A stretch of 37,133 bases of DNA from Chitinophaga pinensis (lineage in GTDB: Bacteria > Bacteroidota > Bacteroidia > Flavobacteriales_D > Crocinitomicaceae), in NCBI GenBank assembly GCA_943327315.2, contig CALPWQ020000013.1, positions 1 through 37,133 of the forward strand. Reading direction: 5' to 3'. Position 1 is the first letter of the stretch. The number at the start of each line of letters is the position of its first letter. Below, piece by piece: positions 21,458 to 26,396 of this stretch. The notes beneath the pieces were generated by a model. The model did not search any database. It was not told where the DNA came from and saw only the letters and a program-made list of their open reading frames with translations. The position numbers were made by a program, and so were the translations under genes.

Positions 21458-22048
21458 TCAACGGTTTTCTGAATGTGTTGAAAATCGATCTTCTATATGG
21501 TCAATCAAGGAATGAATCACCTTGATGTGAATCTCCTGAGCTCGGTCAGCGAACTTGCTGTGCGGTGCACGAATTTCCACATCACACAATGAGGCCATTT
21601 TTCCGCCATCTTTTCCAGTTAGTCCAACGATGAACATCCCTTTTTTTCTTCCCGCTTCTATGGCATTCAATACATTTTGAGAGTTCCCCGAGGTAGAAAT
21701 TGCAAGAAGAACATCTCCTTTGTTGCCAATAGCTTCTAAATAGCGCGAAAAAACATGCGCATATCCATAATCATTGCCCACGCAACTCATGTGACTTGGG
21801 TCAGAAATTGAAAGGGCTGGAAGTGCTTGACGATCATCTCTGTAACGTCCGGTAAGTTCTTCTGCAAAGTGCATGGCATCGCACATGGAACCTCCATTTC
21901 CGCAGCTAATGATTTTACCACCCCCACGAATGGATGTAAGCATCATCTCGCCTGCGCGTTCAATTTTCTCGAAATTTTCAGTAGTACTAAATGCTGCGAG
22001 AACAGAAGCGGCTTCAGAAAAATGGTCTGCAATTTGTAAGGTGCGCAT
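21458..22048 (-). CDS. gmhA: Phosphoheptose isomerase (SIS domain)
   Basis: A 196-residue SIS-fold enzyme converting sedoheptulose 7-phosphate to D-glycero-D-manno-heptose 7-phosphate, the first step of ADP-heptose synthesis for LPS. Phosphosugar-binding motifs are [23 protein letters not shown] and [14 protein letters not shown]. The family's catalytic-site segments [21 protein letters not shown] and [17 protein letters not shown] are present. Length is typical for GmhA. It is transcribed alone from a strong-looking -7 box and is divergent from the unknown secreted protein at 22149. Confidence 0.92.
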
Positions 22049-22064
22049 GACGTTAAATTTTTAT

Positions 22065-22072
22065 CAAAATTA
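22065..22072 (-). promoter_or_regulatory. -7 promoter box for gmhA
   Basis: Minus-strand TAATTTTG matches TAnnTTTG and lies 16 bases before the gmhA ATG at 22048. Confidence 0.6.
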
Positions 22073-22110
22073 AATATTTCAGTCGATATGAGGATTTATG
22101 CGATTCTTCT

Positions 22111-22118
22111 TATATTTG
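22111..22118 (+). promoter_or_regulatory. -7 promoter box for the secreted paralog pair
   Basis: TATATTTG is a perfect TAnnTTTG element, 30 bases before the ATG at 22149. It faces away from the gmhA box 38 bases away, making a compact divergent promoter region. Confidence 0.6.
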
Positions 22119-22148
22119 AAATCAGGGTAAACCCCGTAAAATTGGTCT

Positions 22149-22754
22149 ATGCATAGAGGTTTGCAACTTACTTTTTTCTTCATCGGGCATCTGTTTTTTG
22201 CCCATTCTCAAACCGATTGCTTCCTAAAGTTAGAAAAAGCATTTGTTGAACGTGGTGCAAATACGGTTCCCGACGCCATGCATAAAAACATAGCCATTTG
22301 CTTTTTTAACAAAGAAAGAATGGGCTGTTACCGAGGAAAAGCACGCGTTGAAAACGGAAAAATCACGTCGTTTTTTCTTCAATACTCCGATGATTCTTAC
22401 ATGCTGTACGAAGATCCTTTTTACAACGCAATGAAAACGGCACCAGCCATTAAAAACGGCATTTCTGAAATGATCTACTCGGCAAAGGGGGAATCGTTCA
22501 AAATCGTTTTTATGGACCAGCTTAAACCAAAAACGAGTGGTCAAATTTTTAATAAGCCATTGGAATCAAAGGGTATTCTGTGCATTTTATTCGCTGAAAA
22601 CCCATTAAATTTCTTCTCAACTACTACCTGTTTGCACATTGTTGATGATTTGAATGTGCAACATGCAAACAAAAATCTTATTTTTACATCGTTTACTGAT
22701 TGCAACAACCGCATTTTTGCCTTGGAATCATTGAACAAAACACTGCTTAATTAA
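22149..22754 (+). CDS. Secreted protein of unknown function, paralog 1, possibly frameshifted tail
   Basis: I do not recognise this family. The 201-residue product has a signal peptide (LQLTFFFIGHLFFAHSQ) and, up to about residue 133, aligns with the next gene. Shared features are CFxKLExAFxxRGA, an FFN strand, C...G..RVENG.I, a Y.DD.(S/T)Y..(Y/F)E.PF stretch, NGISEMIY and F...(D/E).LKPK. The domain is about 110 residues, probably beta-rich. After LKPK the match ends. This protein continues for about 65 residues (from TSGQIFNKP) that the paralog lacks, while a one-base shift at the A-run near 22527 would give a short end (NEWSNF then stop). The tail may therefore be a frameshift product reading through former intergenic DNA. 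Confidence 0.65.
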   Translation: MHRGLQLTFFFIGHLFFAHSQTDCFLKLEKAFVERGANTVPDAMHKNIAICFFNKERMGCYRGKARVENGKITSFFLQYSDDSYMLYEDPFYNAMKTAPAIKNGISEMIYSAKGESFKIVFMDQLKPKTSGQIFNKPLESKGILCILFAENPLNFFSTTTCLHIVDDLNVQHANKNLIFTSFTDCNNRIFALESLNKTLLN

Positions 22755-22764
22755 ACCGTATACC

Positions 22765-23190
22765 ATGAGAAAAAGTCTTGCATTAATCGTGATTCTGATG
22801 TTTTCATTTCTTTCCCAAGCACAGGAAAGTTGTTTTACCAAATTGGAGCAAGCATTCCTCAAAAGAGGTGCATATCCTGTTGGTGATGACAACCACAACA
22901 ATGTGATTCTGAGTTTTTTCAATAGTGATGGGACATCAACATGTGTTACAGGTCGTGTGCGTGTGGAAAACGGAAGAATTGTTCACATTGCGGTATATTA
23001 CGACGATGGAACGTATGGCCCATTTGAAAAACCATTCTCCAATGACAAAAAGAATACACCAATCATTGTAAATGGGATTTCTGAGATGATTTACACTTCA
23101 GACAACGAAAAATTCAAAGTGGTGTTTATTGAGAAGTTAAAGCCGAAACAAAAGGCGCTTAAGGAATACGAACTTCCAACAGATCTTTAA
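22765..23190 (+). CDS. Secreted protein of unknown function, paralog 2
   Basis: A 141-residue product with a clear signal peptide (MRKSLALIVILMFSFLSQAQ) and one small domain homologous to the gene just upstream. It has the conserved opening ESCFTKLEQAFLKRGAYPVGDD, the strand VILSFFNSDG, then GRVRVENGRIVHIAVYYDDGTY, and the closing NGISEMIYTSDNEKFKVVFIEKLKPK. Two cysteines remain in the mature part (CFTKLE and STCVTG) and could form a disulfide after export. It starts 10 bases after the first paralog and ends before a strong terminator. Without matches to known families I give no function; the tandem arrangement shows a local duplication. Confidence 0.75.
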   Translation: MRKSLALIVILMFSFLSQAQESCFTKLEQAFLKRGAYPVGDDNHNNVILSFFNSDGTSTCVTGRVRVENGRIVHIAVYYDDGTYGPFEKPFSNDKKNTPIIVNGISEMIYTSDNEKFKVVFIEKLKPKQKALKEYELPTDL

Positions 23191-23199
23191 GAAAACAGG

Positions 23200-23226
23200 T
23201 CCCGGTTTAACACTGGGATTTTTTTT
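23200..23226 (+). terminator. Intrinsic terminator after the secreted paralog pair
   Basis: TCCCGGT (23200-23206) pairs with ACTGGGA (23212-23218) with one G-U pair and a five-base loop, followed directly by eight T residues (23219-23226). It lies 9 bases after the stop of the second paralog and only 3 bases before the first possible SDR start codon. Confidence 0.85.
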
Positions 23227-23235
23227 GTCATGGCT

Positions 23236-24030
23236 ATGAAGAATTTTCAGGGAAAAGTCGTTTGGATCACTGGAGCCTCCTCAGGTATCGGTGCTGAGTT
23301 GTCAAAACAATGCGCCGAAGCAGGTGCTATTGTGGTCTTGTCTGGGAGAAATCAAAACAGTCTTGAACTGGTCAAAGAGAAACTTTTGCACCCAGAATCT
23401 CATTTGATTGTGCCACTCGATTTGGAACATGCTGACAACTTTAAGGAATTGGCGGCGTCGCTTATTGCGCAAGTAAATCGAATAGATATCCTGATCAATA
23501 ACGGAGGTATTAGCCAGCGGGGAACGGCATTTGAAACAGATGAAGCCGTAGACCGCAGAATCATGGAGGTCAATTATTTTGGAAATATCGCCTTGTCAAA
23601 AGCTGTCTTGCCCTATATGCGGAATCAAGGTACAGGTCATATTGTGGTGCTATCAAGCATCGCAGGAAAATTCGGATTCTTCCTTCGTTCGGCCTATAGT
23701 GCCTCGAAACATGCGCTTCATGGATTTTATGAAAGCCTCATGCTCGAAGAGGAACAAAATGGGATCAAGGTGACTATAGCCTGTCCAGGAAAAATTAACA
23801 CGAACATTTCCTTGAATGCCCTGAATTCAAGCGGGGAGAGTCATGGTGTGATGGATCACAATCAAGAAACGGGGATGACTGCAGAAGAATGCGCACGCAT
23901 CATGTTGCACGCAGTCTTGAAAGAAAAGAAGGAGGTGCTCATTGGAAACAAGGAAATTAAAGCAGTGACGCTGAAACGTTTTTTGCCAGGACTTTTCTGG
24001 AAAATTATTCGCAAACAATCAGCAACGTGA
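23236..24030 (+). CDS. Short-chain dehydrogenase/reductase (SDR)
   Basis: A classical SDR oxidoreductase of about 264 residues with a Rossmann fold. The nucleotide-binding motif is ITGASSGIG near the N-terminus, the structural motif is INNGG (in place of NNAG), and the catalytic residues are Ser in VLSSIAG and Tyr/Lys in YSASK. The C-terminal half (KVTIACPGKINTNIS) resembles the DHRS7-like group, whose substrates are often lipids or steroids; the actual substrate is unknown. I prefer ATG 23236 (MKNFQGKVVWITG); another in-frame ATG at 23230 adds two residues. Both lie just past the upstream terminator. The stop overlaps the next start (GTGA). Confidence 0.88.
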   Translation: MKNFQGKVVWITGASSGIGAELSKQCAEAGAIVVLSGRNQNSLELVKEKLLHPESHLIVPLDLEHADNFKELAASLIAQVNRIDILINNGGISQRGTAFETDEAVDRRIMEVNYFGNIALSKAVLPYMRNQGTGHIVVLSSIAGKFGFFLRSAYSASKHALHGFYESLMLEEEQNGIKVTIACPGKINTNISLNALNSSGESHGVMDHNQETGMTAEECARIMLHAVLKEKKEVLIGNKEIKAVTLKRFLPGLFWKIIRKQSAT

Positions 24031-24734
24031 GAATTTCACTCTTTTTTCTCCTCGGCTTGCTAGTTTCATTTGGCGAAGTTAAAGCATGCTGTGGTGCTGG
24101 ACAATACCGCGTTTTTCCGCTAGGACTGATAAAAAACAAGGCGGTATGTGCGGTGTTCGAGATGAGCAGACACTGTGAAGAGGAATTTCAAGACTATCAT
24201 TGGGTAGGAAAAGTATCTTTAGCAATTCAGTCGTCTGATTCGCTACAGGTATTGAGTGAAGTGTTTTCAACCATTGAATTTCTTGAGTGTTTATGCAAGC
24301 CCGATGAATTAGAAGAAAAATCAGCATACCTCACTTACATGAATGCCTATTTGGATACGGCGCTTTTTCATGCAAAACAGTTGAAAGGATTTCAAGCCTT
24401 TGAACGCATGGAATACATCGCCACTGAAGCGGAATTTTCTAAAAATAAGGTGCAGCTCAACAATGATCAATTGGGGGTGAGGGATTTTTCTCTTTCCTTT
24501 ACATTTGAAGCCTTGAACTGCGAATCTCTTTCAATGATTCGAGAGGTACGGTTCTATTATATCAAAAAAAAGTACTTTGCTGTATGCTGTTTGGGTTGTC
24601 CAGAAGGGAAAGAAATCTCAGAGACCTTGTTAGAAAAGGGCCGTTCGAATGCCTTGAATTCACCATTTGGAATGACCTATGTCGCAGTTGATTGGCACGG
24701 TTACACGAGAGATGTCTTGCTTGGCCCAAATTAG
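24027..24734 (+). CDS. Cys-rich secreted protein of unknown function
   Basis: Not recognised. The 235-residue product starts with GTG at 24027, overlapping the SDR stop by 4 bases, and has a signal peptide (MRISLFFLLGLLVSFGEVKA). The mature form begins CCGAGQYRVFPLG and contains further Cys pairs in LECLCKPDE and VCCLGCPEG, suggesting disulfides. The VKAC boundary does not fit a lipobox well because of the Lys at -2, so a soluble periplasmic or secreted form is more likely than a lipoprotein. The middle is helical (SAYLTYMNAYLDTALFHAKQL) and the end strand-rich. It sits between the SDR and a lipoprotein gene with 4-base overlap and 15-base gap, so co-transcription is very likely. Confidence 0.7.
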   Translation: MRISLFFLLGLLVSFGEVKACCGAGQYRVFPLGLIKNKAVCAVFEMSRHCEEEFQDYHWVGKVSLAIQSSDSLQVLSEVFSTIEFLECLCKPDELEEKSAYLTYMNAYLDTALFHAKQLKGFQAFERMEYIATEAEFSKNKVQLNNDQLGVRDFSLSFTFEALNCESLSMIREVRFYYIKKKYFAVCCLGCPEGKEISETLLEKGRSNALNSPFGMTYVAVDWHGYTRDVLLGPN

Positions 24735-24749
24735 ACTAAAATCCTTCAG

Positions 24750-26396
24750 ATGACGATGAAGTGTGCGTTTTTCCTTTCTTTGTTCCTGCTTTTGGCTTCA
24801 TGCCGGGTAAATATCCCAACGGCAATGCTTGGTTCTGCGAGGAGTAAGTCCTTTGAGATCTCTGCGGGCAACATTCAAGTACCTCATGAGCGAACTCTCC
24901 TTTGGAATACCAAGAGTGAATTCGCAGATAGTGTGATCAAAGAATGGGCGGACATGCCAATGGCGGATTGGGAAAACGATGGAAAAACAACGGCTCCAAG
25001 GATACTCCTTGCTCGATTGTATGCTAAAAAGGATATTCCCGAAACCAATAAAGTTATTCAATCCCTCGTTCCAAGGGGAGTTACGGGCTCAAAATGGTGG
25101 CTTAATCCAAAAGGTGATTATGACTTCACCTTAACCACCTTAACGACAATTCTCTTTCTTTTTGGCGAAAAACCCGAGATTCTCTATCCGGAAACCAAGG
25201 ACCACTTGGTGAATGTCTTACTGACGGATTCTGGGGATAAATTCCGTAAACACGTTCCTCATACTTTGGGTTTGATTATCGACACGGAAAATCATATCCT
25301 CATGACCGAAGGTTCGCGCTATTTAAAGAATCAATGGCTGACCTTGCATGGCAATACAAGCAAAAAGTTTAATAATGAGCAAAATGGAATGGAGCTCCGT
25401 CTGCACTCTTTCTTAAGCGGACTGACAACTATGGGGCTATTTGAGTTTAATTCCTTGCCTTATATCGGATACACGATTGCTGCCCTACTTAACTTAGAAG
25501 CATTTGGATCTGAACAGATTCAAACAGATGCTCGAAATGTACTGGATTACATGAATTGGTGCTATGCCCTCGGAAGTCTTGAACTCAACCACTTTCCACC
25601 CATGCGCAGACGTTACGAAAAAGCGGGGATAAGAGATTTTGCGAGTAATTACCATACAGCCTTTATGACCACATGGCTTCATTTTCTAAATGACACCTTA
25701 CCGCTTCCAACACGTGAATTGGTCCATGCACATACTTTGGTGGCTTCGTATATGCCATATAGGCCTGCAGACGAAGTGGTACACTGGCAATTTGACAAAG
25801 GCAATGGTTACTTTGTTCAGTTTGGTCATGGTCCCGGTGCAACGCCAGAAATCTATACTGCAGGGAAGAATTATCTCTTGTCGGCGGGTGGATCAAATCG
25901 AGGTGAAAGCTCACATATCGTTTCTCGACCAATTTGTTTGTTCCTCAAGGATGGAGCCAATGCAGTAGCAGAAACAGTTCATCTCTATGGCCCAACGAAA
26001 GATTACATGAAGTGGAACAATACGGGTGTATTTCAGAATTTGGCCGTTGCTTCAGGTCCAGTTCACGTCCCTAAGCATTTTCATCCTGTCGCTGTTCAAG
26101 GGAATTGGGCGGCTTATGCGCTTCAGGATTCAATTACCTTGGTCGTCTATTCGTGTGAAGATTTCGGGTTGTTCCATGTTGAAGAAAATGTGGAGACGAA
26201 AACGTATTTTGAATCAATAATGAAGTTGAATCCCGATGAATTTAAGCTGACCTCATCATTCGTTACTCTCAATCAACAAGTGATTCAATACAATGTAAAT
26301 GCACCTCACCGGCTATGGGTAATTCAATCTGAAAATGGTATTGAATTGAACAGAAATGTCGACACATGGCCACTGATGAATGGGGTCTTTCGCTAA
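24750..26396 (+). CDS. Large lipoprotein, possibly alpha/alpha-toroid carbohydrate-active fold
   Basis: A 548-residue exported lipoprotein with lipobox LLASC; the lipidated Cys is residue 18 from ATG 24750 or 16 from the alternative ATG 24756. The mature half is helical, with a segment TENHILMTEGSRYLKNQWL that recalls the ENH..M...YL pattern of alpha/alpha-toroid proteins such as polysaccharide lyases and heparinase-like enzymes. It continues with GYTIAALLNLEAFGSEQIQTDARNVLDY. The C-terminal 180 residues appear strand-rich (HWQFDKGNGYFVQFGHG, then AVQGNWAAYALQ), which would suit the toroid plus beta-sandwich layout of such lyases. This is a weak fold guess; no catalytic site can be assigned. 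No SusC/SusD genes are nearby. Confidence 0.65.
   Translation: MTMKCAFFLSLFLLLASCRVNIPTAMLGSARSKSFEISAGNIQVPHERTLLWNTKSEFADSVIKEWADMPMADWENDGKTTAPRILLARLYAKKDIPETNKVIQSLVPRGVTGSKWWLNPKGDYDFTLTTLTTILFLFGEKPEILYPETKDHLVNVLLTDSGDKFRKHVPHTLGLIIDTENHILMTEGSRYLKNQWLTLHGNTSKKFNNEQNGMELRLHSFLSGLTTMGLFEFNSLPYIGYTIAALLNLEAFGSEQIQTDARNVLDYMNWCYALGSLELNHFPPMRRRYEKAGIRDFASNYHTAFMTTWLHFLNDTLPLPTRELVHAHTLVASYMPYRPADEVVHWQFDKGNGYFVQFGHGPGATPEIYTAGKNYLLSAGGSNRGESSHIVSRPICLFLKDGANAVAETVHLYGPTKDYMKWNNTGVFQNLAVASGPVHVPKHFHPVAVQGNWAAYALQDSITLVVYSCEDFGLFHVEENVETKTYFESIMKLNPDEFKLTSSFVTLNQQVIQYNVNAPHRLWVIQSENGIELNRNVDTWPLMNGVFR

Follow-up and report, generated by a model that had tools for sequence, protein, structure and literature searches.

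Tandem copies of a secreted protein family of the Crocinitomicaceae, encoded divergently from gmhA

Introduction

Two adjacent genes in a genome of the Crocinitomicaceae encode small, apparently exported proteins, and raise the questions of which protein family they belong to, why they stand in tandem, and what role they may have. These questions were addressed by computational analysis of contig CALPWQ020000013.1, referred to here as the window (the whole stretch of 37,133 nucleotides), of its genome and of related genomes. The two genes are termed copy A and copy B, and the positions of the features discussed are collected in Table 1.

Table 1. Features of the gmhA–copy A–copy B region, with positions in the window and the basis of each assignment.
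Feature	Position	Strand	Basis
gmhA, D-sedoheptulose 7-phosphate isomerase (SIS domain); neighbour conserved in divergent orientation	21458..22048	-	NCBIfam
Two-promoter intergenic region	22049..22148	.	-7 box scan and conservation in relatives
Copy A (201 aa, secreted), comprising signal peptide, family core and a new tail	22149..22754	+	ORF and BLASTP
Copy A signal peptide, approximately residues 1–21	22149..22211	+	By eye; helix 4–20 in model
Copy A family core, to residue 130	22212..22538	+	Omega; pLDDT blocks
Copy A lineage-specific C-terminal tail, 71 residues, replacing the usual C-terminal segment of the family	22539..22754	+	Omega; open frame; pLDDT blocks
26-nt block inside the copy A tail, identical in the four species compared	22668..22693	.	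Candidate promoter/operator for B
Copy B, 141 aa secreted protein with usual family architecture and C-terminus	22765..23190	+	ORF, BLASTP, model, omega
Intrinsic terminator-like hairpin with U tract	23197..23226 (hairpin 23197–23221)	+	Fold with flanks -13.1 kcal/mol, z -3.16

Results

Relation of copies A and B

BLASTP aligned copies A and B over a shared region of 114 residues, 54 of which are identical (47%, E 2e-37). This region spans the CFxKLExAF.xRGA, RVENG.I and NGISEMIY motifs, in agreement with a preliminary description of the locus as two adjacent, related signal-peptide genes with motifs in common. As judged by eye, both proteins begin with a hydrophobic leader ending in SQ or AQ. 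The lipobox has the consensus [LVI][ASTVI][GAS]C, with the Cys directly following the signal peptide; in both A and B, again by eye, cleavage is likely after AQ or SQ and the first Cys lies two residues further on, which departs from a lipobox.

The signal peptide (by eye) and the residues C23, F31, R34-G35, C60, D81, G104 and F121 are present in both copies. Copy B contains the C-terminal segment after KPK, in which K130, K133 and P138 are nearly invariant (alignment A2). This segment is absent from copy A, which diverges after LKPK and continues into a new tail. A search of the window's genome with copy B returned only A and B, with no third copy at E 10.

Distribution of the family and extent of the duplication

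Matches to copy B (E 0.01) were found in 50 of 59 other genomes of the same taxonomic family and in 8 of 39 other genomes of the order, giving 59 of 99 when the window's own genome is counted. Five of the nine same-family genomes that gave no match are at most 82% complete. A wider sample of the order contained 89 matching genomes out of 299. Among named records, 115 loci were confirmed, and the best 80 of these, which were kept, include Fluviicola, Brumimicrobium and Taishania, pointing to the Crocinitomicaceae. The gene is thus mostly a single-copy gene of the Crocinitomicaceae and of some other Flavobacteriales. A profile search of the phylum recovered divergent relatives from a second family of the same class, in three genomes plus the window's own among 395, a lower bound, as 10 candidates were scored per genome; a follow-up with the same profile scored up to 67. 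Further sampling of that other family with this profile gave matches in 4 of 60 genomes, one of which was already among the three.

Eight residues are invariant over 45 sequences (C23, F31, G35, C60, D81, G104, F121 and P127), and eight in a set of 20 rows that includes the divergent relatives (C23, F31, R34, G35, C60, D81, G104 and F121). The uncharacterised homologues in Fluviicola, Brumimicrobium and Taishania resemble the window's proteins in length, signal peptide and invariant residues, and have a divergent gmhA and a -7 box in nearly all loci examined, but they are single copy and lack the 71-residue tail. Homologues outside the clade with the duplication share 44–61% identity with copy B (76 rows). 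By sequence comparison, A and B are tandem paralogues belonging to a family that is conserved in this lineage and normally present in one copy.

Some record titles appear unreliable. CP034120.1 (L107), a complete chromosome whose title names the gammaproteobacterium Glaciecola amylolytica, carries a Crocinitomicaceae-type locus, and this title looks wrong. The locus is also held by L092, L112, L139, L156 and L158, where the MAG titles Chitinophaga pinensis, Chryseobacterium gleum and Candidatus Kuenenia look doubtful.

Tandem clustering is not general in the family: two full copies are present in only 5 of the 59 matching genomes and 3 of the 80 loci. Among the genomes searched, these five are the window's genome (G000) and G004, G010, G015 and G024, all of the same genus. 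The tandem arrangement was seen in G000, G004, G015 and G024, and we infer it for G010, where A and B end separate contigs whose overlap falls within the tail of A. G044 also gave a weak additional match (E 0.0025, 31% over 64 residues, with one internal stop), which was left out.

In a tree of 37 rows, the five A and the five B sequences each form a clade with support 100/100, on stems of 1.27 and 0.74, respectively. The five host genomes themselves form a clade (SH-aLRT 100; nine neighbour proteins, 12 genomes, of which G010 is 50% and G014 44% filled). Copy B falls beside the single-copy genes of the genus with support 84/77; the position of A is unsure because of its long branch, and since the stem of B is also long, B may not be the plain ancestral copy. 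Neither A and B as one clade (AU p 0.231) nor A and B together with the genus (p 0.079) was rejected, and neither was demonstrated. A single duplication in the stem of this clade is the simplest reading, and an older duplication followed by losses is possible.

Conserved divergent arrangement with gmhA

The product of the neighbouring gmhA scored above the equivalog cut-offs of both GmhA models (NF001628, 273 bits against 265; TIGR00441, 227.9 bits against 209.45). In 76 of the 80 named loci, which are the best-scoring ones and hence lean to close relatives, gmhA is divergent from the family gene, with 94–196 bp between the two; two of the remaining four loci are too short to tell, and two are without gmhA. 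The preliminary statement that nothing nearby indicates a role was therefore only half right, as the family gene forms a conserved divergent pair with the gene for an LPS-heptose isomerase.

The intergenic region contains a candidate -7 box in each direction: TATATTTG on the forward strand (22111–22118), pointing towards the family gene and starting 38 bp before copy A, and TAATTTTG on the reverse strand (22065–22072), pointing towards gmhA. Because Bacteroidota-type -7 boxes as a class are no commoner in the window than expected by chance (31 found, 32.05 expected), the weight of copy A's box lies in its conservation in relatives. Towards the family gene, TANNTTTG is present in 75 of the 76 intergenic regions, in 68 of these at 38–47 bp before the start codon, against approximately 4.5 expected from mononucleotide shuffles, a simulation that covered this direction only. 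Towards gmhA, it is present in 69 of the 76. In Flavobacterium psychrophilum, TAnnTTTG is given as the sigma-A -7 consensus (PMC9723704).

Thirty loci of 9–14 kb were taken from beyond the genus; in 13 of them gmhA and the family gene are the only matches to genes of the window, and in 11 the family gene alone matches. These surviving pairs, together with the frequency of the divergent arrangement and the paired promoter boxes, would be expected if the family protein served GmhA or LPS heptose synthesis as a dedicated partner, perhaps by binding the LPS core in the periplasm, and the pair reflected obligate functional coupling. The co-occurrence data, however, speak against an obligate tie. 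In one genus of the same taxonomic family, each of the 19 genomes examined keeps gmhA and gives no match to the protein family, and the protein family occurs without a close gmhA in G043, G047 and G050, as well as in the f3 members G061, G072 and G094. We regard such a dedicated partnership as unlikely. The heptose kinase model gave a best score of 323.6 bits in the window's genome, against a cut-off of 345, and matched all 14 control genomes, two of them above the cut-off; because the match is below the cut-off and the controls all match, the heptose pathway is not demonstrated for this genome.

Further observations concern the wider neighbourhood. A gene for a short-chain dehydrogenase/reductase (SDR) follows the family gene, less than 400 bp downstream, in 41 of the 80 loci. 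In L184, one of two loci inspected from the genus lacking the family, gmhA is paired directly with a divergent SDR gene, as a clean excision of the family gene would leave it; in the other locus, L183, the neighbour of gmhA is a different one. A YifB-type ATPase-like gene is the divergent neighbour in four of eight f3/f13 loci (L081, L082, L087 and L089), and a family search confirmed the one in L087. Loci L055 and L058 have approximately 2 kb of extra DNA between gmhA and a Fur-family gene, unlike the window. Downstream in the window, two exported-looking gene products, encoded at 24027–24734 (235 aa) and 24750–26396 (548 aa, with a lipoprotein-like start), have no Pfam or NCBIfam match; in a comparison of 40 loci, matches to these genes were confined to the duplication clade, where L050 and L051 have both and L052 has just the one at 24750.

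Expression of copy B and the conserved block in copy A

The preliminary description had the two genes sharing a promoter and ending before a strong terminator. The box before A and the hairpin after B are in line with this, and a single shared promoter is plausible because only 10 bp separate A from B; A and B are probably co-transcribed. Terminator-like matches in the region overall are close to chance (4 found, 3.0 expected). The tail of copy A, however, contains a conserved block that may serve B as promoter or operator, which leaves the shared promoter unproven.

This 26-nt block does not differ at any base, even at third codon positions, between the four species, and is the longest identical run, compared with 13 nt in the core of A and 21 nt in B. 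Conservation is lowest in the tail that surrounds it, at 44% identical columns against 66% in the A core and 78% in B. Within the block lies a perfect, operator-like dyad, AAAAATcttATTTTT (22671–22685). The block also contains AAAAATCTTATTTTT, a pattern found a single time in the window (0.07 expected), and likewise once in 7 of 100 shuffles. Its first 24 nt have a single occurrence in the genome at up to three mismatches. A near -7 box, TATTTTTA, lies 86–87 bp before B in all five genomes, and the full TANNTTTG occurs within 120 bp of B only in G010 of these five. The block may act as a promoter or operator for B.

Selection on the two copies and the tail of copy A

Pairwise omega was 0.01–0.05 for copy B (nine of ten pairs with finite dS, one being saturated), 0.05–0.11 for the core of copy A (residues 1–130; four of six pairs, two having saturated dS) and 0.65–1.13 for the tail of copy A (all six pairs). 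Copy B is under very strong purifying selection, the core of copy A is under weaker purifying selection, and the tail of copy A changes in a nearly neutral manner.

In the four species with a complete copy A, the tail comprises 71 codons with no stop. Out of 4000 neutral simulation runs for each start sequence, 5, 17, 3 and 0 left all four tails open. The simulation used the observed divergence and spared the conserved block; these figures are rough because it started from present-day tails and had no indels, while MAFFT placed one compensating pair of single-base gaps in the G015 tail. The tail is probably translated, though hardly constrained in sequence. In the model of copy A, pLDDT blocks are 87–97 over residues 21–130 and 34–60 over the tail, which is predicted to be disordered.

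The tail could instead be leader DNA of B and no protein feature at all, with A losing its end and the open frame being incidental. An omega near 1, the low pLDDT and the identity of the most conserved part at third positions as well as first and second would all fit. The common open length of 201 aa in four diverged species, so seldom reached in the neutral runs, and the purifying selection on the A core argue against it, and we consider this explanation decidedly unlikely.

Searches for a known family or fold

Neither A nor B passed a cut-off in Pfam or NCBIfam, each giving one sub-threshold match. Nothing was found in PHROGs or PADLOC at E 0.1, the PADLOC library being the 2023 version, absence from which is compatible with a defence role. 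A sequence search of PDB with B alone gave no match, and the lowest E values by profile were 0.41 and 0.35. No Rfam match was found in the window at gathering thresholds. The family is unplaced in every protein-family library searched, which supports the original designation of an unrecognised family of secreted proteins.

Other members gave scattered sub-threshold Pfam matches to 20 families, which we take as chance apart from PF16438 (DUF5035), a small domain of unknown function. The family might be a distant branch of DUF5035, or of another catalogued domain that profile methods narrowly missed: a colinear match to DUF5035 was obtained for a single member of 40 (E 0.0023, 18.3 bits). This best score is, however, below the curated gathering score of 25 bits, the other 39 members gave no match at E 0.1, and A and B gave none either, making such a relation improbable. 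A candidate DUF5035 sequence from 118 genomes, a single match of 22.3 bits with an inner stop, was below the cut-off and was dropped. A further DUF5035 search matched none of 92 genomes, but its controls were silent too, so this zero does not mean absence. In the open-licence PMC literature, a search with exact terms found no papers on DUF5035 or on such uncharacterised Crocinitomicaceae or Fluviicola proteins.

The AlphaFold model of copy B, built from 40 sequences, has a mean pLDDT of 91.9; in it, a single helix follows the signal peptide and precedes a beta domain of seven strands. Fold searches with this model gave no match below E 0.001 in PDB by Foldseek (best E 0.0054, with a TM of 0.22 by query; TM normalised by query 0.13–0.32 among the 50 rows listed) and none below E 0.001 in BFVD. 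VIA ranked a chain from a Dcp1/Dcp2 complex first (Z 4.7; 77 residues at an rmsd of 4.0 Å), with other PH-like and designed barrels close behind. Such barrels (Dcp1 complexes, Ran-binding, EVH1 and designed ones) have a strand arrangement similar to that of family residues ~40–126, but all at Z below 5, where 8 or more indicates clear similarity; they are mostly eukaryotic or designed, and no sequence relation was found. The periplasmic lipoprotein carriers LolA and LolB, envelope proteins of helix-plus-sheet build, are among the weak Foldseek rows (E 0.041–0.38), but with TM by query of 0.17–0.26, which lends homology no support, and they are absent from the best 50 VIA rows. No relation to PH-like, LolA or NTF2 folds is claimed. 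The model of B is confidently predicted, yet is without a convincing structural match.

Of the roles guessed at in the preliminary description, an envelope role may still apply, but the idea that the pair is a module for immunity, effector action or defence, or cargo of a mobile element, suggested by A and B being small, exported tandem paralogues with one fast-changing tail, is highly improbable given the silence of PADLOC and PHROGs, the lack of plasmid or phage matches at E 0.001 (query B only), the lack of a named effector or toxin family among eight scanned neighbours (two being without any family match), and a mostly single-copy, syntenic gene under the constraint seen for B.

Discussion

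Our tentative proposal, which we hold as a possibility rather than a firm assignment, is that the family is a periplasmic envelope protein that was duplicated and partly neofunctionalised in this clade. The protein would be exported to the periplasm, where the two invariant cysteines (C23 and C60) may form a disulfide, and could contribute to envelope maintenance as a small binding or stabilising protein, a candidate role. It may be expressed alongside LPS-core heptose synthesis, yet would be dispensable to GmhA itself. After the duplication, B would have kept the main role and A would have become partly neofunctionalised, and the conserved block in the tail of A may have brought B under extra or separate control.

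A more far-reaching version is rather unlikely. It would have the family founding a new periplasmic fold and a Bacteroidota envelope factor, with the frame of A extended over regulatory DNA of B, and the 26-nt element both translated in A and serving as the promoter or operator of B.

As a family kept in most of the Crocinitomicaceae examined, with a structure predicted at high confidence, invariant cysteines and a conserved gene order, yet unlisted in the libraries searched, these proteins are a good target for an initial functional study of the envelope in these aquatic bacteria. The tandem pair also offers a natural experiment, with one copy becoming nearly fixed and the other acquiring a tail that evolves fast.
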